A DNA stretch of 38,503 nucleotides from the IMG/VR virus record IMGVR_UViG_3300045131_003074, positions 1 to 38,503 of that record. One strand, 5' to 3'. The notes below the pieces were generated by a model that had not been told where the DNA came from, did no database searches, and was given only the letters and a program-made list of their open reading frames with translations. A program made the position numbers and the translations under genes. Below, piece by piece: positions 9,126-35,766 of the stretch (within the stretch, counting starts at the first letter, position 1; each line of letters opens with the position of its first letter). This DNA comes from a virus.

Positions 9126-12100
9126 ATGACCGAGATGCCGAAGATCGCCCAGGAGATATGGGCCAAGAAGTACAAGCACGCCACCGACGGCCGCGTGGAG
9201 GACATGTGGGCCCGCGTGGCCCGGGCCTGCGCCGAAGTGGAGAAGCCCGAGGACCGGCAGCGCCGCAGGGACGAGTTCTACGCGGCCCTGGAGGATTTCA
9301 AGTTCATCCCGGCCGGCAGGATCCTGTCGGCGGCGGGCACGGGCAGGCGCAACAGCACGGCGGGCAACTGCTACGTCATGGGCACCATCGAGGACAGCAT
9401 GGAGGGCATATTCCAGACGGTCAAGGAGGCGGCCATAACCCAACGCCAGGGCGGCGGAGTCGGTTTCGACTTCAGCACCATCCGGCCGGCGGGAACGCGC
9501 GTCGACGGCTGCGAGAGCGACGCCTCGGGGCCCGTGTCGTTCATGCAGGTGTTCGACTCAAGTTGCCGGACGATAGTCAGCGCCGGAAATAGGCGCGGCG
9601 CGATGTTAGGCGCGCTGCGCTGCGACCACCCTGACATCGAGAAGTTCGTCGAGGCGAAGCGTGGCAACGCGACATTGAGGATGTTCAATTTGTCGGTGGC
9701 CGTGACCGATAAGTTCATGGCCGCAGTGAAATCCGACTCGGACTGGGATCTGGTGTTCAACAACAAATTGTACAGGACTATGCGGGCCCGTGATTTGTGG
9801 GATAAGATAATGCGGGCCACGTACGACTACGCCGAGCCCGGCGTCATGTTTATCGATACAGTGAACAACAGCAACAACTTAGGCTATCTCGAGAAGATAG
9901 TCACGGCTAACCCCTGCGTAACTGGCGATACCAGGCTGCACACATCCAAGGGAATGGTGCGCATGGATAGCCTGTTCGACTCCAAAGAGCCGTTGACTTG
10001 CTCCGTGGACGCGCGTTCACTAGGTAAAGAAGGCAGACTATGCGAGCCGCGTGAAGCGGTTCCAGTGTTCATGACCGCCGAATCCGCGGACGTGTACCTG
10101 GTGGAGACCGCGGCCGGATACTCCGTCAAGGCGACAGCCTGGCACGAGTTCTACACAGGCAGAGGCAAGTTGAAGCTATCGGACATCCATGTTGGCGATG
10201 AGCTTTGGACGCAGTCCGGCAAGGGCCTGTTCGGAACGGAGGGCGACTATGCCCTCGGGTTGCTCTTGGGGGCGTTGACTGGGGACGGCTTTTTCAGCAT
10301 GTGCTCCAAGGAGATGGCGACACATCTGGATCTGTGGGATGGTAAGCAGGGTCTGGCGCCGGAGCTGACCGCCAAGATAAACGACATGATCAGCGGCGCG
10401 TCGCCCAGTGACTGCTCTCGCATGATTTCCCCCTTCATCATGAAAGAAGGCAGGAAACTGCAACTCAAATCCAAAATACTGACAAGGGAGTTGGCCAAAT
10501 ACGGGTACACGCCCGAGACTAAGTTGCGCGTGCCGGAGGTGGTTTGGCGCGGAACGCAAGACTGCGTGATCGGGTATCTGCGAGGGCTGTTCGAGACGGA
10601 CGGCACGGTAAACAGCAACAAAGCCGGGGACTCATGCTCCATCCGGCTGACGTCGGTCGACAGGACGCTGCTCACCGAGGTGCAGGTGCTGTTGGCCAAT
10701 TTCGGTGTCTACTCGGCTATCAAGCAGCGCCGGCAGGCGGCCGTCAGAGCTTTGCCGGACGGTAAGGGCGGGCTGAGGGAGTACGCCTGCCGGGCGTACC
10801 ACGAACTCATCGTGGACGGCGAGTCGCGCGGAATGTTCGCCAAGGAGGTGGGTTTTGCTTTGCCTGCCAAGCGCGAGAAGCTAGAGGCATGGCTGGAAGG
10901 CCGCGCCCTGTATAAGAAACAAAGGTTCGCATCCAAAATCGTAAGCATACGGCATATTGGAAAGGAGGCCGTGTACGACACCACGCAGGTCGATCACAAC
11001 GCAGTGATATTCAACGGGCTTGTGACAGGGCAGTGCGGTGAGATTTTCGCTCCGCCGTATGGCGTTTGCCTGCTTGGCTCGATCAACTTGACTAAATTCG
11101 TCGCGGCGCCTTTCACGAAGAACGCGGCGGTGGATCTTGACGGCATCAAAAACCTGACGAAGGTCGCCGTGCGCATGATGGACGACGTCCTGGACTTTTG
11201 CGTCTACCCGCTGCCCCAGCAGGAGGCGGAGGCCAAGGCCAAACGGCGGTTGGGCGTGGGGATCACTGGGCTGGCGGACATGCTGGCCATGAAGGGGCTC
11301 AAATACGACAGCCCCAAGGGGCGCGAGCTGGGCGAGTCGGTCATGGAGCTGATCAAAAACACGGCGTACATGACCAGTTGCGACCTGGCCGAGGAGAAGG
11401 GTGCGTTCCCTATGTTCGACTACGACAAGTACAGCCAGGGCCAATTCCTCAAAGGGCTGAGCTCGGCCGTGAAGGACCGAGTCAAGGCGGTCGGCCTGCG
11501 CAACAGCCATCTGCTGGCGGTCGCGCCCACGGGCACGATCAGCCTGCTGGCCGGCAACGTGTCGTCCGGGCTGGAGCCGGTGTTCGCGCTGAAGTACGAC
11601 CGCAAGATCCGGACGGGCAAGGGCGACGAGACCACCACCGAGGAGGTCAGGGACTACGCGTACGCCGGGCTGGTGGATTCAGGCATGGATCCCGCGGAGG
11701 CGGCCAAGCATTTCCAAACGGCGGACGAGGTGTCGATAGAGGGCCACCTGCAGATGCAGGCGTGCCTGCAAAGGCACGTGGATCACAGCATCAGCAAAAC
11801 TGTCAACATACCCGCCGACTACCCGTTCGACAAGTTCAAGGACGTGTACAAGCGCGCCCACGCGCTGGGGCTCAAGGGCTGCACCACGTTCCGGCCCAGC
11901 GAGCATATCCAGGGCATCCTGACAAAGACGGAGGATCGGCCCAAGGAGGTTTCGGCGGCCACCAAGGACAGGGAGGAGGCGCTCACGGGCGTCACGTACA
12001 AGCTGAAGGTGCCGACCACCGACGACGCGTTCTACATCACGATAAACGACGTCACCGGCACCAACGGCAAGCCGCGGCCGTACGAGATCTTCATCAACAC

Positions 12101-21785: not shown

Positions 21786-23216
21786 ATGGATAAAGAGTAT
21801 AACGCTCTCCTCCTGGCGGGTTTGATTAAATTCCCTGACTTGAGGCAGAGGGCCTCCGCCGTGACAGACGGCCGCCCGTTGTTCGACAATGCCATGGACC
21901 CGTCCGCGGCGTACATGTGGTCGGTCCTGTGTGAAGTGACCGCCCATTTCCAGAACGATCCTGATTTGGGAGTACTGCAGGCGGAGCTCAAATCCAGGGA
22001 GTCCACCATAAAAGGAGGACGCTTGAAGGGTCTGGTGGCCGGTTCGCTGGCTTTGCTGGACGAGATGCGGATGTATTCCGAGATGGGGGTCGACAAGAAA
22101 ACGGCCGAGAAGTTGCTGACCCACACGTTGAGAACTGTCATGCAGGTCGGCTGGGTGTCCGAGATGTCCAAGTTGAAGGACATGAGCAGCATGAGGGACT
22201 TCGTCCTCCGCGTGAGCAGGGATGAGTCGAAGTTGACGGCCAGCGACGAATCGGTCCATTTCCCCCTGATGAATCCGGAGGACTATCTGACCGACGTGAA
22301 GCGGACTCCCACTGGGCTGCGCTTCGTGGACGAGTTGCTAGGCGGCGGGACGTCGCCGGGGGAGATCATAGGCATATTGGGGCCGTCCGGCGGAGGTAAG
22401 ACCGTGTTGGCCACCGGGCTGGTGTGCGAGGCCGCGCGCCGCCAGAGGAAGGCCATGCTAGTCACATGCGAGCAGACCATAGCCGGCGACATAATGCAGC
22501 GCATCTGCTGTTATATGACGCGAATGTCCATAGACACGTTCCGCGGCAAAAAGAGGTCCGACTGGACGTCGGAGCAGCAGGACAGGTATTCCGCGGAGGC
22601 CAAGCCCTGCGAGAAGTTTCTGGCCGTGGCCGACTTCGCCAAGGGCAACGCAGGCCGCAGCGGAGTTTCGGACATAGTGTCCAGGGTCAGCCACCTCAGG
22701 GACAATGAGGATTTCATCCCGGAGTTGATAGTGGTGGATTGGCTAGGGGCCCTGGTGGAGCGCACCGACAACGGGCGCGCCATGGAGTTGAAGGACAAAT
22801 ACAGGTCGTTCGTGCCTGAGATCATGGACACGCTAGGCAGGGTGGCTCAGCAGTGCGGCGCCGTGGTTTTTCTACTGCACCAGCTATCCACCGACATGCA
22901 GCGCGCCCCGTCATCGCGGAAGCCGAACGCCACGCAGGCCCACGAGTGCAGATCAATAGCGCAGAAGATGAACGCGTGTCTGTGTCTAGGCACTCTGGAC
23001 AGCAAGTCCAGAGTGGGGTGGCTTGTCGCGGACAAGAACAGGGGCGCTCCATACAACGAGATGAAAATCCGGTTGGACGGGGAACACATGAGGTTCGACG
23101 ACGTGTCTGGCGACTACATCACGGATTACAGGGGGGCATGGGTACGCAAGGACGAGGACGACTCGACTGGATCCACCCCGTATAAATCAGCCTATGGATC
23201 CAATGGGAAGCCATAG
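21786..23216 (+). CDS. DnaB-like replicative DNA helicase
   Basis: A 476-residue RecA-fold SF4 helicase. A helical N-terminal domain (about 1-150) is followed by PTGLRFVDELLGGG, Walker A GPSGGGKTV (199-207), MLVTCEQTIAGDI, Walker B ELIVVDWLGALV, and a VVFLLHQLSTDM...QAHECRSIAQKMN segment like DnaB motifs H3/H4. It would unwind DNA at the fork as a hexamer, with the primase encoded immediately downstream (23-base overlap). ATG 21786 is two bases after the preceding stop. It could also be described as gp41-like. Confidence 0.85.
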   Translation: MDKEYNALLLAGLIKFPDLRQRASAVTDGRPLFDNAMDPSAAYMWSVLCEVTAHFQNDPDLGVLQAELKSRESTIKGGRLKGLVAGSLALLDEMRMYSEMGVDKKTAEKLLTHTLRTVMQVGWVSEMSKLKDMSSMRDFVLRVSRDESKLTASDESVHFPLMNPEDYLTDVKRTPTGLRFVDELLGGGTSPGEIIGILGPSGGGKTVLATGLVCEAARRQRKAMLVTCEQTIAGDIMQRICCYMTRMSIDTFRGKKRSDWTSEQQDRYSAEAKPCEKFLAVADFAKGNAGRSGVSDIVSRVSHLRDNEDFIPELIVVDWLGALVERTDNGRAMELKDKYRSFVPEIMDTLGRVAQQCGAVVFLLHQLSTDMQRAPSSRKPNATQAHECRSIAQKMNACLCLGTLDSKSRVGWLVADKNRGAPYNEMKIRLDGEHMRFDDVSGDYITDYRGAWVRKDEDDSTGSTPYKSAYGSNGKP

Positions 23217-24240
23217 CGCGGAATATCAGCCGCTCAACGTGGAGTTGCATTCGGCCATGGAGCGGCTGTTCGGCGACGTGGTCCTGTCGGACAGGGGGGC
23301 CAGGCCCGATGTGACTCCCCGGACGTCCGAGCTGTTGGGTGGCGGGGCCAGTGTTACAGGAGGGGAGTACTACACTGTGGACTGCCCCTTCTGCCTAGAT
23401 TCTCGCAAACGATTGTGGGTGTCCTGCGCTTGGGGGTTCACGGCCTTTGGCTCGCGCCCGTTGACCAAGCTGGCCCACTGCTTCAACGAGAACTGCCTGG
23501 CTGATCCGGCCAATGAGCGCAGGCTGTGGCTGGAGTTGCGCAGGGAGTTGGGCGGGGCATACGGAACCGAACTGAAGTTGAACGACGATTGCCCCCTGGT
23601 GCCTGAAGACCCCTTGAGCCCTGACGAGTGGGGCGCGGGGCTGCCCCCGTGCGTGGAGCTCTCCTCCCCTGACTGCCCCAAGGCTGTCAGAGGCTATCTG
23701 AGGGCTCGCGGATTCAATCCGGCCGTCCTGGGGTCGGAATGGGGCGTCAAGGTGGGGATGGTTCAACCTCATTCGCCGTATCCCAGCCTGATCATACCCG
23801 TGGTCATGCACGGAGTTCTAACGGGATGGCAGGCGCGGAAGGTGTCCGCCAAAGGACCCGGGCCTAAATATTATAATCCGCCTGGGTTCAAGAAATCCCA
23901 CAGTCTGTACAATCTGGATTCGGCACGCTCGTCGCGCCGGGTGATCCTCGTCGAGGGGGTCAGCGACTGCTGGGCCTGTGGGCCGTCGGCAGTAGCTCTA
24001 TTCGGCAAGAAACCATCAGCCAGGCAGGAGGCTTTGATCTTCAGCCTGTTTCAAGGAAGGGAGGTGGCGTGGCTGCCGGACGAGAATGATCCGGAGAGTC
24101 TTGAGACCGCGAGATCCCTGGCACCAGTGTGGCGCGTCAGGGGGTTGTTCTCGCGCATCGAGGTTGTTGTTCTTCCCGGGGATCCGGGATCCAACAAACG
24201 AGTAGACATAGAATCGGCGATAGAGGAGGCGTTCAAATGA
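23194..24240 (+). CDS. DNA primase (DnaG/gp61-like) with zinc finger and TOPRIM
   Basis: A 348-residue protein. The N-terminal zinc module is VDCPFCLDSRKRLWVSC...AHCFNENC. The middle has the RNA-polymerase-like basic region (GWQARKVSAKGPGPKYYN). The TOPRIM signature is VILVEGVSDCWA (about residues 249-260) with a later acidic WLPDENDPES. It makes RNA primers for lagging-strand synthesis together with the DnaB-like helicase. The start overlaps the helicase end; an alternative ATG is at 23203. The end overlaps the polymerase start (ATGA). Confidence 0.85.
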   Translation: MDPMGSHSAEYQPLNVELHSAMERLFGDVVLSDRGARPDVTPRTSELLGGGASVTGGEYYTVDCPFCLDSRKRLWVSCAWGFTAFGSRPLTKLAHCFNENCLADPANERRLWLELRRELGGAYGTELKLNDDCPLVPEDPLSPDEWGAGLPPCVELSSPDCPKAVRGYLRARGFNPAVLGSEWGVKVGMVQPHSPYPSLIIPVVMHGVLTGWQARKVSAKGPGPKYYNPPGFKKSHSLYNLDSARSSRRVILVEGVSDCWACGPSAVALFGKKPSARQEALIFSLFQGREVAWLPDENDPESLETARSLAPVWRVRGLFSRIEVVVLPGDPGSNKRVDIESAIEEAFK

Positions 24241-25694
24241 GAATAGAACAGGGGGTCGACGGGGTTAGATTCGAGATGGCCCATAAAAGGTTCCGCATGA
24301 GGGTGTGGGACCCCGTCGACGGGGAGATACCGGATTGTCCGGGCGGATGGGCCGGGGTGGACACCGAGACTTTGAGGATCTCGGACATCGAGCCGTACAT
24401 CCCGCCGGATCTGGTGCTATTGCAGGCCGCGTATCCCGGACTGGTGCACCTGGTCCCCTGGGACCAGGCGGCGGACTATGTCAGGCGCGTGGCGGTCAGA
24501 GGGATCAAGATGGCCATGTTCAACGCGGCGTTCGACGTGGCCGTGCTGCGGCCGTTCCTTCCAGAGGTTGACACTCTGGTGGAAAGCGGGCTCATAGTGG
24601 ACGTCAGATGCCGTAAATGGGTCAGGGACATATCCCTCAAGGGGTTCATGAACGAGCATGAGACGCTGGCGTCCGCGTTCAAGGCGTCGCTGGCCGTGGA
24701 GCTGGAGAAGCCCGAGGACGTCAGGCTGAGCTACACTAGGGACATGGAGCTGGACATGCCCCACGCCGTATACGCGGCCAAGGACGCGGTGGCCACTTTG
24801 CTCTTGGCGGAGTGCGTGCCAAGTCAGAAGACGGAGGAGGATCAGACCATGGGCTCGGTGGCTTTGGACTCCATAGAGCGCAGAGGCATGCTGGTGGACA
24901 GGGACTATTTCAACGTCAAGAAGTCGGAGTTGGCCGTCAAGATGCTGGAGGACGCGGAGGAGATGAGGCTGATGGGGTTCGACCCGGACCCCAAAGCCAC
25001 CGCGCCGGCCGCCCTGTTGAAGAAGGCCGCCTTGGACGTGGGGCTCAGATTGGAGATGGGTCCAGAGTTGAAGACCCCCGGCACCATGTACAGACAATTG
25101 TCCGTTATGTGGCTGGCCAGACTGGCCTCGGGGGATCCGGCCAATCTTACGGAGGATCTCCGGAACATATTGGCCGAGTGCCTGCGGAGCGCCCCCAACA
25201 TCGCGATTATGGAATTGCGGCGCCTGGCGGATTCGATAGGCATGCCCGATTTGGTGGATGTGCGCCGGATAGGTCTCCATGCCTTGCTGCTCTCACTCTC
25301 GGCGGCCGAGTTGAAGAAGGGCTCGCCGCCCGAGGACGCCTTCGAAGTGGTGGCTGCCCTGCGCAGACTCAGGGGCGGATTCGACGACGTGGTGGCCGTC
25401 AAACCCAAGGAGTTCCTGCAGAATCATCTGAGGAAGTTGTTGGGGGACAAGGAGAATTCCTGGCCCAAGACGCCCACCAATCAGTTGTCCACGTCCAAGG
25501 ATCATCTGGCCAACTTCAAGGACTATGGGATCGAGAAGGATCCGCTGCTGGATATGTACGCGGAGTACAAGCACTCCGAGAAGTTGATAGGGACGTACTT
25601 CAACGAGAGGCATGTCCGCAAGGACGGCCGCATGCACCCGCGGTATAGGGTCATGGTATTAACAGGCCGGACGTCCTGCGCAGATCCCAACCTT
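24237..25694 (+). CDS. Family A DNA polymerase, exon 1 (3'-5' exonuclease and thumb)
   Basis: First of four exons that together give about 781 residues. Exonuclease motifs: GVDTET (Asp42, Glu44), MFNAAFDVAVL (Asp100) and YAAKDAVATLLL. Then come the thumb region (STSKDHLANF, EYKHSEKLIGTYFNER) and HPRYRVMVLTGRTSCADPNL at the entrance to the palm. The open frame runs into non-coding sequence and stops at 25727, so the exon probably ends after CTT at 25694. The phage replicative polymerase would work with the adjacent helicase and primase. All four exons lie in the same frame. Start in an ATGA overlap. Confidence 0.9.
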
Positions 25695-26027
25695 TTCTAT
25701 ATCAACGAATTACGATGCGTTGCCTAGATAGTGGAGGTTGTAAAACCCTTTGAATTGCTGGAACACCTTTAGGTCGGGCAGCACCACAGCGTGGCCGGCG
25801 ACGGCGGGCGCGAAGGTTGGAGAAGAGCCGGGCATCAGGAGGCAATCAGCAGGCAAGGGCCTGGACCGCGCGGTCCAGGTCAAGCTTCAGAGACCATCCC
25901 GCAAGGGAGTAGGGGCCCAGGGTAAAGGGCTTCGAAGCAGAGGGGCGGTCCGATCCCGCATGATATGGTCCGCACACCACGGAGACGTGGTGAGGGGCGT
26001 CTGACCCGGACGTTCCGCAACAAAAGG
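25695..26027 (+). mobile_element. Group I intron 1 in the DNA polymerase gene (no ORF)
   Basis: This 333-base segment separates DPNL from QNLPREG, which are contiguous in family A polymerases. The exon ends in T and the intron in G, as group I introns require. Core landmarks: P-like GAATTGCTGGAA (25752-25763), Q-like AATCAGCAGG, a CCTGGACCGC/GCGGTCCAGG hairpin, R-like CTTCAGAGACC (25885-25895) and S-like GATATGGTCC (25962-25971). No endonuclease ORF is present. The core resembles that of the intron at 27048-28040. Confidence 0.85.
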
Positions 26028-26342
26028 CAAAATCTTCCTAGAGAGGGAGTTAGGGAAATGTTCGTGGCCAGTCCGGGCAATGTGCTGGCGGCCGTGGACT
26101 ATTGTCAGTTGGAGTTGTGCACCCTGGCCCAGACCTGCGTCACCCGGTTCGGGCACAGCAGGATGGCCGATCTGATAAACGCCAACGTCGACTTGCACAG
26201 GTGGTTCGCGGCCAAGGTCAAGGGTCTGCTCAGCCGCGAGTACGACATGAGGGACGAGGGGGATCTGGCCTCTCTGAAGGATATCCTGAAGGGAGTCAGC
26301 AAGAAGGATAGAAGCGACGCGAAGGCCGCAAATTTCGGCGGA
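26028..26342 (+). CDS. Family A DNA polymerase, exon 2 (palm motif A and fingers)
   Basis: The exon begins QNLPREGVREMF and contains motif A (LAAVDYCQLELCTLAQ, with the catalytic Asp), DLHRWFAAKV, and ends in motif B (KKDRSDAKAANFGG, O-helix). It has no good independent start and makes sense only when joined to exon 1. The 3' limit is uncertain: the frame stays open to 26363, but coding character is lost after GGA at 26342. Confidence 0.85.
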
Positions 26343-26726
26343 CTAGTAGTTAAAGCAGCTTAACAAGAACAGGCTTAGCATGTACACTTTTTCTAAACAA
26401 GGAGGTGGGCATGCGAGTTTGTTTGCGTTGCGGAGAGAGCATAGAGGCCAGGCCACTTCACTCTCCGACAATGTTTGTCACCTGCTTTAGCGAATTGGCC
26501 GAATCAAAATCCCGGAATTAAGCGAGAAACCCCGGAGACGGGCAACTCGAGTCCGAAGGCTGCGAGGGATCGCAGTCAGGCGCAACGCATAGTGACAGGG
26601 GAAGACCTCCCATCAGTCACCACGAGGCCGGGACACCGAGAGGTGAAAAAATATGCTGAGCTACGGTTTAATCTGACAAGAAGCCGTAGAAGTCGCGGAT
26701 AAAAAGCCGCGGCGGTAACAACACTG
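26343..26726 (+). mobile_element. Second intervening sequence in the polymerase gene, unclassified
   Basis: About 384 bases interrupt the O-helix between NFGG and LPGGMGSKRF. A U-before/G-end group I rule would fit a start after 26351 and an end at 26726. The standard group I R and S boxes of the other two introns are not found. The 3' part is dense in hairpins: CTGCGA-GGGA-TCGCAG, GTGAC...GTCAC, TCACC...GGTGA and CTACGG...CCGTAG. A 36-codon ORF lies in the 5' part. It could be a diverged group I intron or a degraded transposon/omega-RNA-type element. Boundaries are uncertain by about 10 bases. Confidence 0.65.
26411..26521 (+). CDS. Short cysteine-containing ORF inside the second intervening sequence
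   Basis: A 36-codon ORF with a consensus AAGGAGG site. The product begins MRVCLRCGESIEARP and has another Cys later (FVTCFSELAE). The strong ribosome site suggests it is, or was, translated. Its place matches that of the endonuclease ORF in the 27048-28040 intron, so it may be a truncated homing endonuclease, for example the start of an HNH-type protein; this is inference. Confidence 0.45.
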   Translation: MRVCLRCGESIEARPLHSPTMFVTCFSELAESKSRN

Positions 26727-27047
26727 TTGCCTGGAGGCATGGGATCCAAAAGATTCCACGCCCACGCCAAGACCTGCGGAGTGGTGGGGATGACGCTGGC
26801 AGACGCGGAGTCGTTGAGAAATAGCTGGCTGGAGGCGTACCCCGAGATGACGGAGTACTTCCAGTTGGAGAAGGATCAGCTGGATGGATCCTTCGTTGCC
26901 GAGACGGTGGGGACCGGACTGCGCAGATCCAAATGCTCATACAGCTCCGCGGCCAACTTCCCGTTCCAGAGCCTGGCCGCGGCGGGGGCCAAGCGGGCCC
27001 TGTGGGCCCTGCACAAGTTCAACATCCCGGTCGTCAATTTCATCCAT
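26727..27047 (+). CDS. Family A DNA polymerase, exon 3 (fingers to palm)
   Basis: Starts LPGGMGSKRFHAHAK, the continuation of motif B, and runs through SLRNSWLEAYPEM, VGTGLRRSKCSYSSAANFPF, QSLAAAGAKRAL to NIPVVNFIH, stopping exactly before the catalytic Asp of motif C. The following codon is TAG in unspliced RNA. It is functional only if spliced to exon 4. Confidence 0.85.
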
Positions 27048-28040
27048 TAGCAAAAATCTCAAATGATGCTAAGGTAAAGGCGTCAAAGGAGGTTTGTCTA
27101 TGAAGAACCAGCTGAGAGTGTACGTGTACAACAACACCGTCGACAATAAAAAGTACGTAGGCGCCACGTCAATGGAACTATCAGCCAGAGCCGGAAAGAA
27201 CGGCAGCCAATATAGAGGAAGCGTCTTCTTCTACGAGGCTATACGCAAGTATGGCTGGTCGGCTTTCAAGGTAGTGAGGTGCGAGGAAGGCCTGTCGCAT
27301 CCGGAAGCCGCCGCACTGGAGAAGAAGCTGATCGCCGAATACAAGGCCAACGACCCGGAGCACGGGTACAACTTGTACAGGGGCGGACTGCGGTTGGAGA
27401 GTCTGACGGAGCGCGAGCGCAAGACAAGGTTGGATAAGATCAAGGCATCGCTAAGAAGCCAGCGGTCGTCGGACGAGGTTCGCGCTAAGATGCGCGAACG
27501 CATGCTGGAGGTATGGTCGCGAGGCGAGCAGCGTTCTATACGAATGGCTGCCCGAAAAGCGAATCCACCAGGCCGTCCGGCCGTACGAGCGCAATGCGTG
27601 GAGACGGGTGTTGTGTACGTGAACCTAAAAGAGGCGTCCAAGGCCTTCGGAATGTGTGTCGCCGCCATAAGCAAAGGTTTGAAACGGAATGGCGGAGTCA
27701 TGGTTTTACACACACGCGCGAAAGGTAAAGAAGTGGTTCATCTTCGTAGACTAGACATGGTGGATGTAAAACGCGGAGAATTGCTGGAATAGGCTTAGAG
27801 CCGTCTGAACCACAGCGTAGCCGGTAACGGCAGGCGCGACGGTTTGAGAATCAGACGGATTGTCCAACCAGCAGCCGATCCTCCATTTGGAGGCAGGTTC
27901 AGAGACTAAACGTACACCCAAGTGGGTGGAAGCACCGCGGCCTCGAAAGAGGTATGATATAGTCCAGCCTTCCGGGAAAGCCGGAAGCTGTCCGTAAAAG
28001 GGCAGGGGCAGGGAAACTACGAACCTGCTTGAATACAGCG
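27048..28040 (+). mobile_element. Group I intron 3 in the polymerase gene, with GIY-YIG endonuclease
   Basis: This 993-base segment splits the HDE catalytic motif between His and Asp. Exon 3 ends in T and the intron ends in G. The core has GAATTGCTGGAA (27778-27789, identical to intron 1), R box GTTCAGAGACTA (27897-27908) and S box ATGATATAGTCC (27954-27965), both near-consensus. The 5' half encodes a GIY-YIG endonuclease whose stop lies in the intron core. Confidence 0.92.
27100..27792 (+). CDS. GIY-YIG homing endonuclease (intron-encoded)
   Basis: A 230-residue protein with AAAGGAGG seven bases before the ATG at 27100. The nuclease domain is at the N-terminus: VYVYNNTVDNKKYVGATS (GIY and YIG strands), AIRKYGWSAFKV, and EAAALEKKLIAEYKA with the catalytic Glu, then YNLYRGG. 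A basic linker and a C-terminal helix-turn-helix-like/NUMOD segment (LKEASKAFGMCVAAISKGLK) would give DNA-site recognition, as in I-TevI-type and SegE-type enzymes. It would cut intron-less polymerase genes and spread the intron. Less GC-rich than flanking exons. Confidence 0.9.
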   Translation: MKNQLRVYVYNNTVDNKKYVGATSMELSARAGKNGSQYRGSVFFYEAIRKYGWSAFKVVRCEEGLSHPEAAALEKKLIAEYKANDPEHGYNLYRGGLRLESLTERERKTRLDKIKASLRSQRSSDEVRAKMRERMLEVWSRGEQRSIRMAARKANPPGRPAVRAQCVETGVVYVNLKEASKAFGMCVAAISKGLKRNGGVMVLHTRAKGKEVVHLRRLDMVDVKRGELLE

Positions 28041-28292
28041 GATGAGGTTATATTAGACGTCCCCGAGCTGATAGCCGGGGAGGTGGTGGCCGTCACCCAG
28101 GAGTTGATGATCGGGGCCATGCGCGAGGTGGTTCCAGACGTGACGATCCGTGTGGAGGCCACACTGATGCGTAGATGGAGCAAGAAAGCGGAGGCGGTGT
28201 ACGATGGGAAAGGAGTTCTGGCACCGTGGGAGGATCGACTGATTAAGCAGCTTTTCGACTCGAAAGGCTCCCCAGTAACAGCCGCGGCGTGA
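28041..28292 (+). CDS. Family A DNA polymerase, exon 4 (motif C Asp and C-terminus)
   Basis: Begins DEVILDVPELIAGEV, directly completing VNFIH-DEV, the palm motif C with a catalytic Asp. It continues to VRVEATLMRRWSKKAE and ends at TGA 28292 after about 83 residues. It is not expressed as an independent enzyme. The tail after the palm is slightly longer than in many phage polymerases. Confidence 0.85.
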   Translation, partial: DEVILDVPELIAGEVVAVTQELMIGAMREVVPDVTIRVEATLMRRWSKKAEAVYDGKGVLAPWEDRLIKQLFDSKGSPVTAAA

Positions 28293-28337: not shown

Positions 28338-29591
28338 ATGGGTCTTTATTCGATGAACGATGATTTCGGCCGCCGCGGCGGCTCCAACGGGGTTTTCGCC
28401 CCGGGCGTCAAAACTCTCAGATTCACCGGCAAGAACACGCCGATGGACTTCCGCATCCTGCCCGCGTTCGATCCGAACAAGGTGTTCGAGACGCCCAAAG
28501 GCATCGAGGTGGATCCGGAGTCCTGGGTCCCGTTCCGCAAGGACGACGACGAGGGCTCCCTCAACACATGGGGCCGCCTGATCACGGAGGGCCGCTGGCT
28601 TGGCCATCCGGGCGGCCGGCAGGTGGACATCGTGTCCGAGACGACGTATGGCGAGTCCGAGTCCAGTTGCGTCCTGCTCAAATTCATCAACACGGTGGCT
28701 GCCCGCCCGGAGTGGAAGTACCTCCAGGAGGAGCGCCCCTATCCAACGGCCAAAGGGGTGATCATCCGCAAGGCGATGCCCATCCGGGCCTCGGCCTCCG
28801 TCCTCATCAACCTGGTCTGCGTGGACCATCCGGGCGAGGGCGTGCAACTGGGCGTCCTGTCCAACATGACCATGATCTCCATCACGGGGCGGTCGGGCAT
28901 CGGCACGATGGCCAACGCGTCCGTCAGCGAGGAGGCCTTGGCCTCGGACTACTGCTCCCGCTGGGCGTGCGGGGATTTGACCAAGCCGGGCAGGGGCATC
29001 GTCGTCCGCGTGGAGAAGGACACCGACACCAAGAAGCCCATCCAGGGTTTCGTGGCCGTGTTGGCCATGGACTCCCGCGGAGGGTTGCGCAGGTTCGAGA
29101 CCACCAGGGAGCATTTGATGGACAGGTACAACCTGTACGACATCGAATCCCTGATTCCCCGCAGGGACGCGGCCTTCAACGTCAGGCTGCTGGTGGAGGC
29201 TTTCGACGGGGTCAGCCCGACAGGAGTGCCCGAGCGCGAGTTGCTGCGCGAGTTGTTCTCTGACATTTGCGACATCCCGTCGCACGCCATCCCGGGCCAG
29301 AAGCAGACGTTCGCCGCCCCCGCCAAGAGGGACGAGGAGGAGCTCGCCGAAGCGTTCGCCGCGCCCAAACCGCGTAAACAGGCGCAGCTCGCGCCCGCGC
29401 CTGAGCCCGTGGATGATACAGGCGTGGAGTACGTGCCGCCACAACCCGCCAAACCAGTGGCGGCCAGGCCCCCGGAGCATAACCGCTCTCCGGCCGTCCC
29501 CGCCCAGAAGCAGCAGGTGGACAAGGCCCAGTTGGCCGCCCGCCTGAAGGCTGCGCAGGACTTGCTGGAGCAGGATGAAGCCGGTGAGTAA
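28338..29591 (+). CDS. Probable single-stranded DNA-binding protein (by context)
   Basis: A 417-residue protein with an AGGAG site before the ATG. The N-terminal 310 residues are a mixed beta-rich domain (TLRFTGKNTPMDFRILPAFD; VLINLVCVDHPGEGV). The C-terminal 100 residues are Pro/Ala/Gln-rich and end in an acidic tip (DLLEQDEAGE), the architecture of phage SSBs whose acidic tail contacts replication partners. Its place between polymerase and recombinase is where T4-like phages need gp32. No SSB motif is certain; a structural annotation is excluded mainly by the context. Confidence 0.5.
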   Translation: MGLYSMNDDFGRRGGSNGVFAPGVKTLRFTGKNTPMDFRILPAFDPNKVFETPKGIEVDPESWVPFRKDDDEGSLNTWGRLITEGRWLGHPGGRQVDIVSETTYGESESSCVLLKFINTVAARPEWKYLQEERPYPTAKGVIIRKAMPIRASASVLINLVCVDHPGEGVQLGVLSNMTMISITGRSGIGTMANASVSEEALASDYCSRWACGDLTKPGRGIVVRVEKDTDTKKPIQGFVAVLAMDSRGGLRRFETTREHLMDRYNLYDIESLIPRRDAAFNVRLLVEAFDGVSPTGVPERELLRELFSDICDIPSHAIPGQKQTFAAPAKRDEEELAEAFAAPKPRKQAQLAPAPEPVDDTGVEYVPPQPAKPVAARPPEHNRSPAVPAQKQQVDKAQLAARLKAAQDLLEQDEAGE

Positions 29592-32816: not shown

Positions 32817-33473
32817 ATGCTAGTGCCTAGCAGAAAAGCATCTCATGAACTGGGAGTGCATCCCAACACATTACGGAGGTGGGCTGATGAGGGACGAATA
32901 CGATTCGCAATGTCCCCTGGCGGACAGCGGTTGTACGACTGCTCCTCCATCGACAAGTCCCGCGCAAGTGGAAAATTCTGTTATTGCAGAGTGTCCTCTG
33001 CCAAGCAGAAAGAGGACCTCCACAGGCAGATCGCGTACATGCGAGAGCACTTCCCGGAGCATGAGATCATCCAAGACGTCGGCAGCGGCCTCAACTTCAA
33101 AAGAAAAGGATTTACGTCCCTTCTGGAGCGATCGTGCGCTGGAGATGTCAAAGAAGTTGTGGTTGCCCACAAAGACAGACTCGCCAGGTTCGGATTCGAC
33201 CTCGTCAGGTGGCTTGTCGAGCGCAACGGTGGAAAACTCGTGGTTCTCGGCGACGTTCGACAAAGCCCCGAGTCAGAGCTCACCGCCGACCTGCTCTCCA
33301 TCATCCACGTCTTCTCCTGCCGGATGCGCGGCCTTAGAAAATACGGCCGTGCCGTCAAGGAAGATAAAGCTCTACCCCACGGCGGAGCAGCGGGAGAAAC
33401 TGCGCCAGTGGGCGGGAACGGCGCGGTTCCTGTACAACAAGACAGTGGAGCATCTGAGACTACCGGACACTAA
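32817..33473 (+). CDS. tnpA: IS607-family serine recombinase (TnpA), outer element
   Basis: A 218-residue protein. An N-terminal MerR-like helix-turn-helix (SHELGVHPNTLRRWADEGRI) is followed by a serine recombinase domain: FCYCRVSSAKQKEDLHRQIA with the nucleophile Ser at the second S of RVSS, VVVAHKDRLARFGFDLV, and SIIHVFSCRMRGLRKYGRAV. The IS607 order (DNA-binding domain before catalysis) is clear. The protein normally ends near KEDKALP; here the last 20 residues overlap tnpB in another frame. GGAGG lies six bases before the ATG. It appears intact. Confidence 0.9.
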   Translation: MLVPSRKASHELGVHPNTLRRWADEGRIRFAMSPGGQRLYDCSSIDKSRASGKFCYCRVSSAKQKEDLHRQIAYMREHFPEHEIIQDVGSGLNFKRKGFTSLLERSCAGDVKEVVVAHKDRLARFGFDLVRWLVERNGGKLVVLGDVRQSPESELTADLLSIIHVFSCRMRGLRKYGRAVKEDKALPHGGAAGETAPVGGNGAVPVQQDSGASETTGH

Positions 33474-33777
33474 AGCTAGTTGGATGTCGTTGAAGGGTCC
33501 AGCTTTGGCTGAAGCCCCCGAGTGGGCGGGGCTGGTGCCCTACCAGATCAAGTCGATAGCCGTCAAGGAAGCCTGCGACGCGGTGTCGCGGGCGAAAATC
33601 AAATGCAAGAAGACAGGAGGATTCAACCAAGTCAAGTTCAGATCGCGTAAGAGTAAGCAATCCATCTACATTCCGAAAAGCGCAGTCATTAAAGGCGGCA
33701 TCTACAAGAGACTGTTGGGGCCGATTAAAGCGGCTGAGCCTTTCGACACCGCCAAATATGACTGCCATATAGTGTGA
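33349..33777 (+). pseudogene. tnpB: tnpB of the outer element, 5' fragment
   Basis: Starts at GTG 33349 within tnpA. The 142 residues cover the OrfB N-terminal helix-turn-helix region (KIKLYPTAEQREKLRQWAG, TARFLYNKTVEHLR) and the wedge-like region to DTAKYDCHIV, then stop. The usual continuation (VYxxGRYYL... and RuvC Asp DPG) is absent. The missing middle includes the first two RuvC residues, so it is inactive alone. Confidence 0.85.
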
Positions 33778-33796: not shown

Positions 33797-33825
33797 TTGA
33801 CTTTTATTATCATGCGATGTATTGT
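33797..33825 (+). promoter_or_regulatory. Sigma-70-like promoter of the inner tnpA
   Basis: TTGACT, a 17-base spacer and TATTGT. A dyad with arms CATGC/GCATG spans the -10 box, a similar layout to the outer element. Transcription would begin at about 33832, leaving almost no leader before the tnpA ATG at 33837. Confidence 0.65.
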
Positions 33826-33830
33826 ATTGC

Positions 33831-34433
33831 ATGAACATGAAAACCTCCATAAAGTTGTCCGACTTCGCTAAGAGGCAAGGCATAGCCTACCTCACGGCGT
33901 ACCGCTGGTTCCGGGCTGGTAGAATAGAGGGCTCCTATGTCTCCTCTACCGGCTCAATCTTTGTGACTCTCCCCGAGGAATCCAACAACCACGCCCGCGT
34001 GGTGGTGTACGCGCGCGTCTCCAACCAGTCCAGGCGCAAGGAACTGCAATATCAGGTCAAGCGGTGCCTGGACTTCTGCTCAGCCAGAGGTTTATCCGTG
34101 GAGGACACCTACTACGAGGTGGCCTCCGGGATGAACGACAACAGGCGTAAACTCTGGGCCATGCTGGAATCGAAACCATCCACCATAGTGGTGGAGAACA
34201 AAGACAGACTCACTCGCTTCGGTTTCAACTATCTGGCTCGCCTGCTCAAAGAGCAGGGCTGCCAAATAATGGTGATGAATCCCAATGACAACGACGAGCA
34301 AGATCTGATGAAGGACATGGTGGCCATCATCACCAGCTTCTGCTGCCGGCTTTACGGCCTGCGGCGGACCAAGAACAAACTCGATAAGATTAAAGCGGTG
34401 GTCTCGGAGATAGCCGACAATGGCCAAGACTAA
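33831..34433 (+). CDS. tnpA: IS607-family serine recombinase (TnpA), inner element
   Basis: A 200-residue protein (ATG 33831; ATG 33837 fits the promoter better). MerR-like helix-turn-helix (LSDFAKRQGIAYLTAYRWF), then the catalytic domain VVVYARVSNQSRRKELQYQV with the nucleophilic Ser, TIVVENKDRLTRFGFNYLA, and ITSFCCRLYGLRRTKNK. It is a distant homologue of the outer TnpA, not a recent copy. The 3' end overlaps tnpB by 14 bases, the usual IS607 layout. It appears intact. Confidence 0.88.
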   Translation: MNMKTSIKLSDFAKRQGIAYLTAYRWFRAGRIEGSYVSSTGSIFVTLPEESNNHARVVVYARVSNQSRRKELQYQVKRCLDFCSARGLSVEDTYYEVASGMNDNRRKLWAMLESKPSTIVVENKDRLTRFGFNYLARLLKEQGCQIMVMNPNDNDEQDLMKDMVAIITSFCCRLYGLRRTKNKLDKIKAVVSEIADNGQD

Positions 34434-35766
34434 GAACACAGCCATAAGATCCTCTAAGCACACGCTGAAGTTCGCCAATAAAGGCAAACGGCAGGATGTG
34501 GCTCTGTTCATGGCCGCCTATAGAGAAGCCGTGCGTTTCTACGTGAACTGGCTCTGGTCGGCTGACGTCCGATGGGTGTCGGACGTCAAAGACAAGACAA
34601 CAGGCCTGACCACTCAGGTTGCCCGGAGGTTCTGCCTGGCCGACCATTGCCTCGACGTCCCCTCGATGATATCCACCACGACTGTCGCTATAAACAGCCC
34701 GCTAAGAGCCCGCGCCCTTAAATGCGCCAGCACGCAGGCTTGCGGCATCGTGGGCGCCGTCGTGCGGAAACGTGTCAGGGACGAGGCATCCGCCGCGTGG
34801 CAGATGCGGGAACGCGGCTGCGTGGGCAAACAGTTGGCCAAGCGGCTTGCCCAGCCCTTGACCCAGCCTGACTGCTCTTCGGTGAACGCCGAGCTAAACT
34901 CCATCTGCGCCGAGGTGGAGGAGGCCGACGGGTCATCCTTCGCCGATCTCTGGCTGAAGCTGTCGTGCCTGTTCAAGCCCGACGTGCGGGGCAGGGGCTT
35001 TTCGATAGACATCCCTGTCTTCAAGCACAGGCAGTCCATCAAATGGGAAACGCAGGGCACGCGCCTCAATAGCTTCCTTCTTAACGAGAAAGAGGTTCAG
35101 ATCCGTTACGAGGTCGCCAAACCAGCCGAGAAGGCCGCTGGCGCCACCGTCGGAGTGGACCAAGGTAAGAAGACCTGCCTGTCTTTCAGCGACGGCCAGC
35201 AGTCCGGCGCAGGGCCGCACGGCCACACGCTGGATTCGGTCATCGCGGCCATGTGCCGCAAACGCAAAGGCTCCAAAGGTTTCGCCAGGGCGCAGGCGCA
35301 TCGCAGGAACCTAGTCGGCTACCTGGTCAAGAACATGAACTACTCCAACATCAAACACGTCTGCCTGGAAGGCATCATCAACATCAATTTCGGCAGGCGA
35401 ATGCCGAGGTCGATGAGACATTGGACGAACACGCTGATAAGAGACGCTCTGGAGAAGCACGTCTGGGAGACCGGAGTCCGGTTCGAGCAGGTGCGCTCCG
35501 AGTACAACAGCCAACGATGCAGCGTGTGCGGCTGGACCTGTAAGCGGAATAGGAAGGCCAAGCAGTTCGCTTGCTCGGCCTGCGGCAACGCGATGGACGC
35601 GGATTTGAACGCCAGTAAAAACGTGGCGATCCGCAACCAGCTTCCTAATCCGCCTTACTGGTTCAGGGAGAACAGAGTAAACTTGCGCGGGTTCCTATGG
35701 ACCATGGCAGGTTTCTTTGACTCCGAAGGCAAGGAGCTTACAGTCCCTTGTCCCGCGGCGAGCTGA
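34420..35766 (+). CDS. tnpB: TnpB RNA-guided nuclease homologue, inner element
   Basis: A 448-residue TnpB. RuvC residues are present: Asp247 (GATVGVDQGKK), Glu317 (HVCLEGII) and Asp395 (MDADLNASKN). The zinc ribbon is C367-x2-C370 (RCSVCGW) with C385-x2-C388 (FACSACGN). TnpB proteins use an omega RNA from the transposon right end to cut DNA and help keep the element. The C-terminal tail is long (about 48 residues after the last Asp). The large N-terminal region contains an extra helical insertion compared with small TnpBs. Probably active. Confidence 0.88.
   Translation: MAKTKNTAIRSSKHTLKFANKGKRQDVALFMAAYREAVRFYVNWLWSADVRWVSDVKDKTTGLTTQVARRFCLADHCLDVPSMISTTTVAINSPLRARALKCASTQACGIVGAVVRKRVRDEASAAWQMRERGCVGKQLAKRLAQPLTQPDCSSVNAELNSICAEVEEADGSSFADLWLKLSCLFKPDVRGRGFSIDIPVFKHRQSIKWETQGTRLNSFLLNEKEVQIRYEVAKPAEKAAGATVGVDQGKKTCLSFSDGQQSGAGPHGHTLDSVIAAMCRKRKGSKGFARAQAHRRNLVGYLVKNMNYSNIKHVCLEGIININFGRRMPRSMRHWTNTLIRDALEKHVWETGVRFEQVRSEYNSQRCSVCGWTCKRNRKAKQFACSACGNAMDADLNASKNVAIRNQLPNPPYWFRENRVNLRGFLWTMAGFFDSEGKELTVPCPAAS

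Follow-up and report, generated by a model that had tools for sequence, protein, structure and literature searches.

Three probable group I introns of two lineages in the family A DNA polymerase gene of a phage contig

The virus contig IMGVR_UViG_3300045131_003074 of the IMG/VR database, analyzed over its whole length of 38,503 bases (hereafter, the window), carries at positions 24237-28292 of the plus strand a single family A DNA polymerase gene that consists of four exons and three inserts (Table 1). The inserts are very probably three group I introns belonging to two lineages. The exon ends were chosen where the conserved motifs are restored and the rules of group I splicing fit. With these boundaries, the length of each insert is divisible by three, every insertion site is in phase 0 (at a codon boundary), and each insert contains at least three stop codons in every frame. 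The mapped exon boundaries and the open-frame analysis bore out the exon order, the motifs and the shared reading frame given in a preliminary description made from the sequence alone; of its insert sizes, those of the first and third were correct, but the second insert is 387 nucleotides (nt) long and not about 384.

Joining of the four exons gives a protein of 780 residues (the preliminary figure of 781 included the stop codon). The Pfam profile DNA_pol_A matches the joined protein over a single unbroken stretch (residues 397-744, profile positions 37-380 of 381, 125.7 bits, E-value = 2.9e-36) that contains motifs A, B and C, whereas the pieces taken singly scored 30.3, 40.2 and 10.3 bits for exons 1, 2 and 3, and exon 4 had no match. 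In the alignment with four intron-free phage polymerases, all three junctions, namely, DPNL/QNLPREG, KAANFG/LPGGMG and VVNFIH/DEVI (the slash marks the junction), were free of gaps and lay inside conserved motifs; at the second of them (NFG/LPGGMG), the intron-free relatives read NFGFPGGLG and NFGRPGGMG (KVANFGFPGGLG and KVNNFGRPGGMG in the alignment). The solved structure of DNA polymerase I 8jrb_A also aligned continuously with the joined protein (E-value = 3.3e-23). The preliminary description had proposed such an alignment as a check, and its interpretation of the locus, a polymerase gene whose three insertions are spliced out, is well supported. A search of IMG/VR for relatives gave none with exon 1 as the query and only one with exon 3.

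Table 1. Features mapped in and around the exons and inserts of the polymerase gene (positions in the window).
Feature	Position	Strand	Description	Profile match
Exon 1	24237-25694	+	3'-5' exonuclease-like region and polymerase to TGRTSCADPNL	PHROG_17, 2.9e-18; PF00476, 30.3 bits
Intron 1	25695-26027	+	333 nt, predicted group I, no notable open reading frame	
Exon 2	26028-26339	+	QNLPREG, motif A, to KAANFG	PF00476, 40.2 bits
Intron 2	26340-26726	+	387 nt, predicted group I, lineage undetected by Rfam	
36-codon open reading frame	26411-26521	+	MRVCLRCGESIEARPLHSPTMFVTCFSELAESKSRN; AGGAGG upstream; in intron 2	
Internal guide sequence	26498-26503	+	GCCGAA; pairs with 5' exon UUCGGC, 26334-26339 (6/6 paired)	
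P3, 5' strand	26510-26515	+	UCCCGG; pairs with CCGGGA, 26628-26633	
P7, 5' strand	26585-26591	+	A(C)GCAUA; pairs with UAUGCU, 26652-26657	
Exon 3	26727-27047	+	LPGGMG to VVNFIH	PHROG_17, 5.8e-4 alone; joined alignment
Intron 3	27048-28040	+	993 nt, predicted group I, relative of intron 1	
GIY-YIG homing endonuclease gene	27100-27792	+	P1 loop of intron 3	PHROG_314, 7.8e-22; PF01541, 19.4 bits, below cut-off
Exon 4	28041-28292	+	motif C DEV to stop	PHROG_17, 4.6e-3 alone; joined alignment

Introns 1 and 3 each matched the Rfam group I model RF00028 (Intron_gpI; curated cut-off, 50 bits) from its first to its last position, with 40.5 bits (E-value = 2.8e-8) and 37.3 bits (E-value = 2.6e-7), respectively, the E-values being those for the stretch searched; in a search of the contig at the gathering cut-off, no Rfam match was obtained. 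Predicted P1 pairings were found for all three introns. In introns 1 and 3, P1 was paired by eye and comprises 7 base pairs with U.G at the splice site (CAACCUU, 25688-25694, with GAGGUUG, 25734-25740, and CAUCCAU, 27041-27047, with GUGGAUG, 27760-27766, respectively). The P7 motifs lie at 25885-25895 and 25960-25971 in intron 1 and at 27896-27908 and 27954-27965 in intron 3. Hence, both have a conserved group I core, the U.G pair at the 5' splice site and the terminal G; their cores resemble each other, and that of intron 3 matches a stretch annotated as Intron_gpI in Pseudomonas phage Pa_WF01. The final codons of the endonuclease gene in intron 3 overlap the guide sequence and the core; AAAGGAGG at 27085-27092 was listed with this gene. 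The inserts had initially been described as three different insertions, which holds for insert 2, a member of another group I lineage, but not for inserts 1 and 3, which are related and both match RF00028.

Insert 2 matched no Rfam family, even at E ≤ 10, and its group I character rests on comparison with relatives. The alignment of 34 copies supports helices P3, P4, P5, P6, P7, P7.1 (a hairpin between P7 and P3'), P8, P9 and P9.1, with 96.9% of the cells paired, double changes in 38 of 51 pairs and a covariation score of 0.589, compared with 0.08-0.11 for slid versions. In these sequences, P3 and P7 were paired in 100% of the cells and showed changes on both sides in five and three of their six pairs, respectively, so that the pseudoknotted P3-P7 core is supported by covariation. 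According to a separate count by regular expression, all six P7 pairs are complementary in 75 of 79 members, and the two strands vary in step (ACGCAUA/UAUGCU, GAGCGUA/UACGCC, GAGAAUA/UAUUCC and GAGACUA/UAGUCC). The G-C pair beside the bulged base of P7, which is the guanosine-binding site of group I introns, is invariant (34/34); a bulged C occurs with A-U and a bulged A with G-C. The spacing between the guide sequence and P3 is 6 nt, as in the copies of Exiguobacterium phage vB_EauM-23 (EauM-23), Listeria phage LIS04 and Lactobacillus phage JCL1032. Intron 2 ends in G (26726), the position that restores both the reading frame and the motif. The hairpin that separates P7 from P3' makes the lineage IA-like, and assignment to IA2 is not established because this hairpin (P7.1) is the only one there, without P7.2. 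It should be noted that in many copies the P7.1 loop is GUGAAAAGAUAUAAUC, which resembles GUGAAAAGAUAUGCUG, the stretch of J8/7 and P7' in that intron (26592-26657 in the window for the two together); the resemblance may reflect internal duplication or coincidence. The 36-codon open reading frame of intron 2, like the LIS04 endonuclease gene, has its stop codon inside the AATTAAGC motif, which lies between P3 and P4. This frame is possibly a vestige of a homing endonuclease gene, a view kept at that strength because it had no PHROG match.

The relatives were collected by sequence pattern and covariance model. A permissive blastn search of insert 2 against phage genomes gave weak matches (E-value = 0.4) in LIS04 and EauM-23, in or beside terminase genes. 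The pattern shared by these stretches retrieved 103 stretches from IMG/VR, and two further patterns retrieved at least 120 each; in GTDB genomes, 30 stretches were found by pattern, most of which were confirmed by R1, a covariance model of the intron 2 lineage built from 34 training sequences. R1 scored intron 2 of the window at 147 bits, the window copy being among the training sequences. Outside the training set, R1 gave matches of 84-134 bits in phages phiR1-37, Goe21, PS1, BpSp, ZK_P1 and Staphylococcus phage F1, found two introns in gyrA of Bacillus phage AR9, and matched terL of JCL1032 with 99.4 bits at the annotated join. The lineage thus spans the jumbo phages AR9, phiR1-37 and PS1, phages of Listeria, Exiguobacterium and Staphylococcus, and JCL1032, whereas no R1 match at E ≤ 10 was obtained in SPO1, Twort, T4, LL-H or Pf-WMP3. 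Splicing of introns of this lineage has independent support: AR9 gyrA and JCL1032 terL are annotated as joins in GenBank, and intron removal leaves 2,430 and 1,809 nt, respectively, both multiples of three; the joined codons of terL, read by eye, give GRKNG/KTT, the Walker A motif. Two self-splicing introns have been demonstrated in JCL1032, and, judging from the annotation, the terL intron is presumably one of them. The two lineage introns of AR9 gyrA are closely similar and lie about 100 bases apart, at IIG/EYHPHG and HG/NFGS.

Several points weigh against the assignment of all three inserts to group I introns. Introns 1 and 3 score below the curated cut-off of RF00028, intron 2 of the window itself belongs to the training set of R1, and the structure of the lineage was read by hand from one aligned sequence, which favours that structure in the count of paired cells. 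Furthermore, the last base of the 5' exon at intron 2 is C instead of the near-universal U, so that the splice site has a C-G pair in place of U.G. The 5' exon of group I introns usually ends in U, paired with a G of the guide sequence, with exceptions; among the relatives with a predicted P1, the last exon base was T in 39 and C in 2. Since the core features are present, the C was treated as a deviation of this copy; as GGC and GGT are both glycine codons, it could have arisen by a silent change in the exon.

This C and the absence of an Rfam match would suit a reading in which group I introns are confined to inserts 1 and 3, while insert 2, either a mobile element that does not splice or a decayed intron, leaves the gene broken or the polymerase in two parts. 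Such an outcome is, in our assessment, very unlikely: pairing is kept in all core helices, P1 is fully paired, NFG-L-PGGMG is restored exactly when the exons are joined at the predicted sites, the exon sequence is open and conserved on either side, and a functional split protein would hardly be divided within the fingers beside NFG. An origin of insert 2 from HEARO or omega RNA or from an IS200/IS605-type element was also considered because IS607-like genes are present in the same contig, and it was rejected given the absence of an Rfam match and the covariation of P3 and P7.

That the inserts are inteins, group II introns or ribosome-bypassing elements is extremely improbable. All of them are frame-neutral, as an in-frame intein must be, and an intein is present in the ribonucleotide reductase (RNR) gene of the same phage, but all three alternatives, bypassing included, were rejected: group I P3/P7 cores were found in all three inserts, inteins are excluded by the stop codons in every frame of every insert, and no group II family of Rfam was matched at E ≤ 10.

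The conserved structure, the boundaries, the intact joined product and the relatives of the introns are observed; splicing in this phage, the mobility of the introns and the order of invasion may be reconstructed as follows. In the pre-mRNA, each intron would excise itself by two guanosine-initiated transesterifications, P1 being formed by the last bases of the 5' exon and the guide sequence just upstream of P3, guanosine being bound by the P3-P7 core, and the conserved last G forming the end of the intron; the four joined exons would then encode the 780-residue polymerase. Introns 1 and 3 come from one lineage; the GIY-YIG gene of intron 3 would spread that intron to intron-less alleles, and intron 1 would be a relative without an endonuclease at a new site. 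Intron 2 would represent an independent invasion by a second lineage widespread in phages, and its P1 loop may still hold a remnant of an endonuclease gene.

The preliminary description treated the frame neutrality of the inserts as a special feature and put it at about a 1 in 27 coincidence. The arithmetic is right for three independent introns, but the figure carries little weight because the property was picked out after being seen. A test on metagenomic intron flanks had only two usable cases, and members of the insert 2 lineage with mapped ends or flanking frames were used instead. In this small sample of eight introns, four have lengths that are multiples of three (window, 387; LIS04, 1173; phiR1-37, 1290; AR9, 354) and four shift the frame (EauM-23, 907; AR9, 358; JCL1032, 226; and the gyrA intron of Goe21, whose flanking frames differ); the lengths for AR9 and JCL1032 were counted by eye and checked against the annotated joins. 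Since half of these introns shift the frame, there is no sign of a frame rule; the special status of the feature was not borne out, the neutrality of the three inserts is most likely due to chance, and no mechanism that requires frame-neutral introns is apparent. Selection for frame neutrality, for example, in relation to the skipping of exons flanked by introns 1 and 3, which are related, appears very improbable. With every intron in phase 0 and the lengths of exons 2 and 3 divisible by three, skipped products would remain in frame, and skipping has been described for the SIOphi polymerase, where it affects 47% of transcripts, and for Twort orf142 (PMC11878797); however, intron length has no bearing on the frame of skipped products, the introns carry stops in all frames, and the same frame-shifting members of the insert 2 lineage argue against it.

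The structure of the gene is of an already known kind because the polymerase genes of Bastillevirinae, SPO1, Bastille and Pf-WMP3 are also split by introns. Three insertions are an unusual load, as first described, but have published precedent: in Bastillevirinae, group I introns frequently interrupt the DNA polymerase genes, which belong to PHROG_17; some of these genes contain two or three introns, and many of the introns carry endonuclease genes (PMC11878797). The likeness concerns the structure of the gene and implies no membership of the window phage in this group; the Bastillevirinae introns were found with Rfam and GISSD models, whereas intron 2 of the window is invisible to RF00028. 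Another gene, in Twort, contains three introns (Landthaler and Shub 1999, as cited in PMC6669764). The DNA polymerase genes of SPO1, Bastille and Pf-WMP3 carry one intron each (I-HmuI, I-BasI and I-PfoP3I), similarly group I and located at conserved motifs (PMC3428280), but of subgroup IA2 and with HNH endonucleases.

Closer to intron 2 is the terL intron of JCL1032, which shares with it the 6 nt between P1 and P3, P7, P7.1, P9 and the 3' end GAUAAC; it differs in length (226 nt versus 387 nt), in its location in the Walker A codons of the terminase rather than in a polymerase, and in a 5' exon ending in U rather than C. The gyrA/topoisomerase II introns of the jumbo phages AR9, Goe21, BpSp and phiR1-37 belong to the same lineage according to R1, but they occupy another gene and some carry endonuclease genes; those of AR9 and phiR1-37 are inserted after GGT glycine codons and intron 2 of the window after GGC.

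The Rfam group I model recovered none of the lineage copies compared. RF00028 missed the JCL1032 terL intron at E ≤ 10 and recovered no R1 copy in 15 further prophage and phage loci, in three of which it found different, neighbouring introns. We tentatively propose, with slightly more doubt than confidence, that the intron 2 lineage is a distinct and so far unnamed group I subgroup that occurs commonly in both phages and prophages and that the Rfam model systematically fails to detect; that it would be characterized by an IA-like fold, a single P7.1 hairpin, a short P1-P3 spacer and P7 of ACGCAUA/UAUGCU or covarying variants; and that it would prefer sites after GGY glycine codons. As separate observations, Bacillus phage vB_BpuM-BpSp is unusually intron-rich, with eleven RF00028 matches and one R1 intron, and three contigs each have an R1-lineage intron within about 500 bases of an RF00028 intron, the two probably sharing one gene.

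The polymerase gene would be a clear example of the invasion of a single phage replication gene by two group I lineages that are unrelated. The widespread lineage of intron 2, invisible to Rfam, is the more useful result and the one most worth following: the phage genes in which it resides, such as those of terminase, gyrase and RNA polymerase subunits, will appear in annotations as broken or split genes, and a covariance model of the lineage would correct such annotations.

The polymerase gene is flanked by a DNA primase gene at 23194-24240 (PHROG_47) and by a gene at 28338-29591, which had no PHROG match. Elsewhere on the contig, the intein of the RNR gene lies in frame at 9915-11033 of the plus strand (about 373 residues, with a LAGLIDADG domain), inserted in NP/CGEI, and its last residue appears to be Gln (VTGQ) and not Asn. 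Two genes for IS607-like serine recombinases at 32817-33473 and 33822-34433 (plus strand) share 76% over 42 nt; a TnpB-like gene with a Cas12f1-like TNB domain lies at 34420-35766 (plus strand), and a possible TnpB fragment was noted near 33430-33777.

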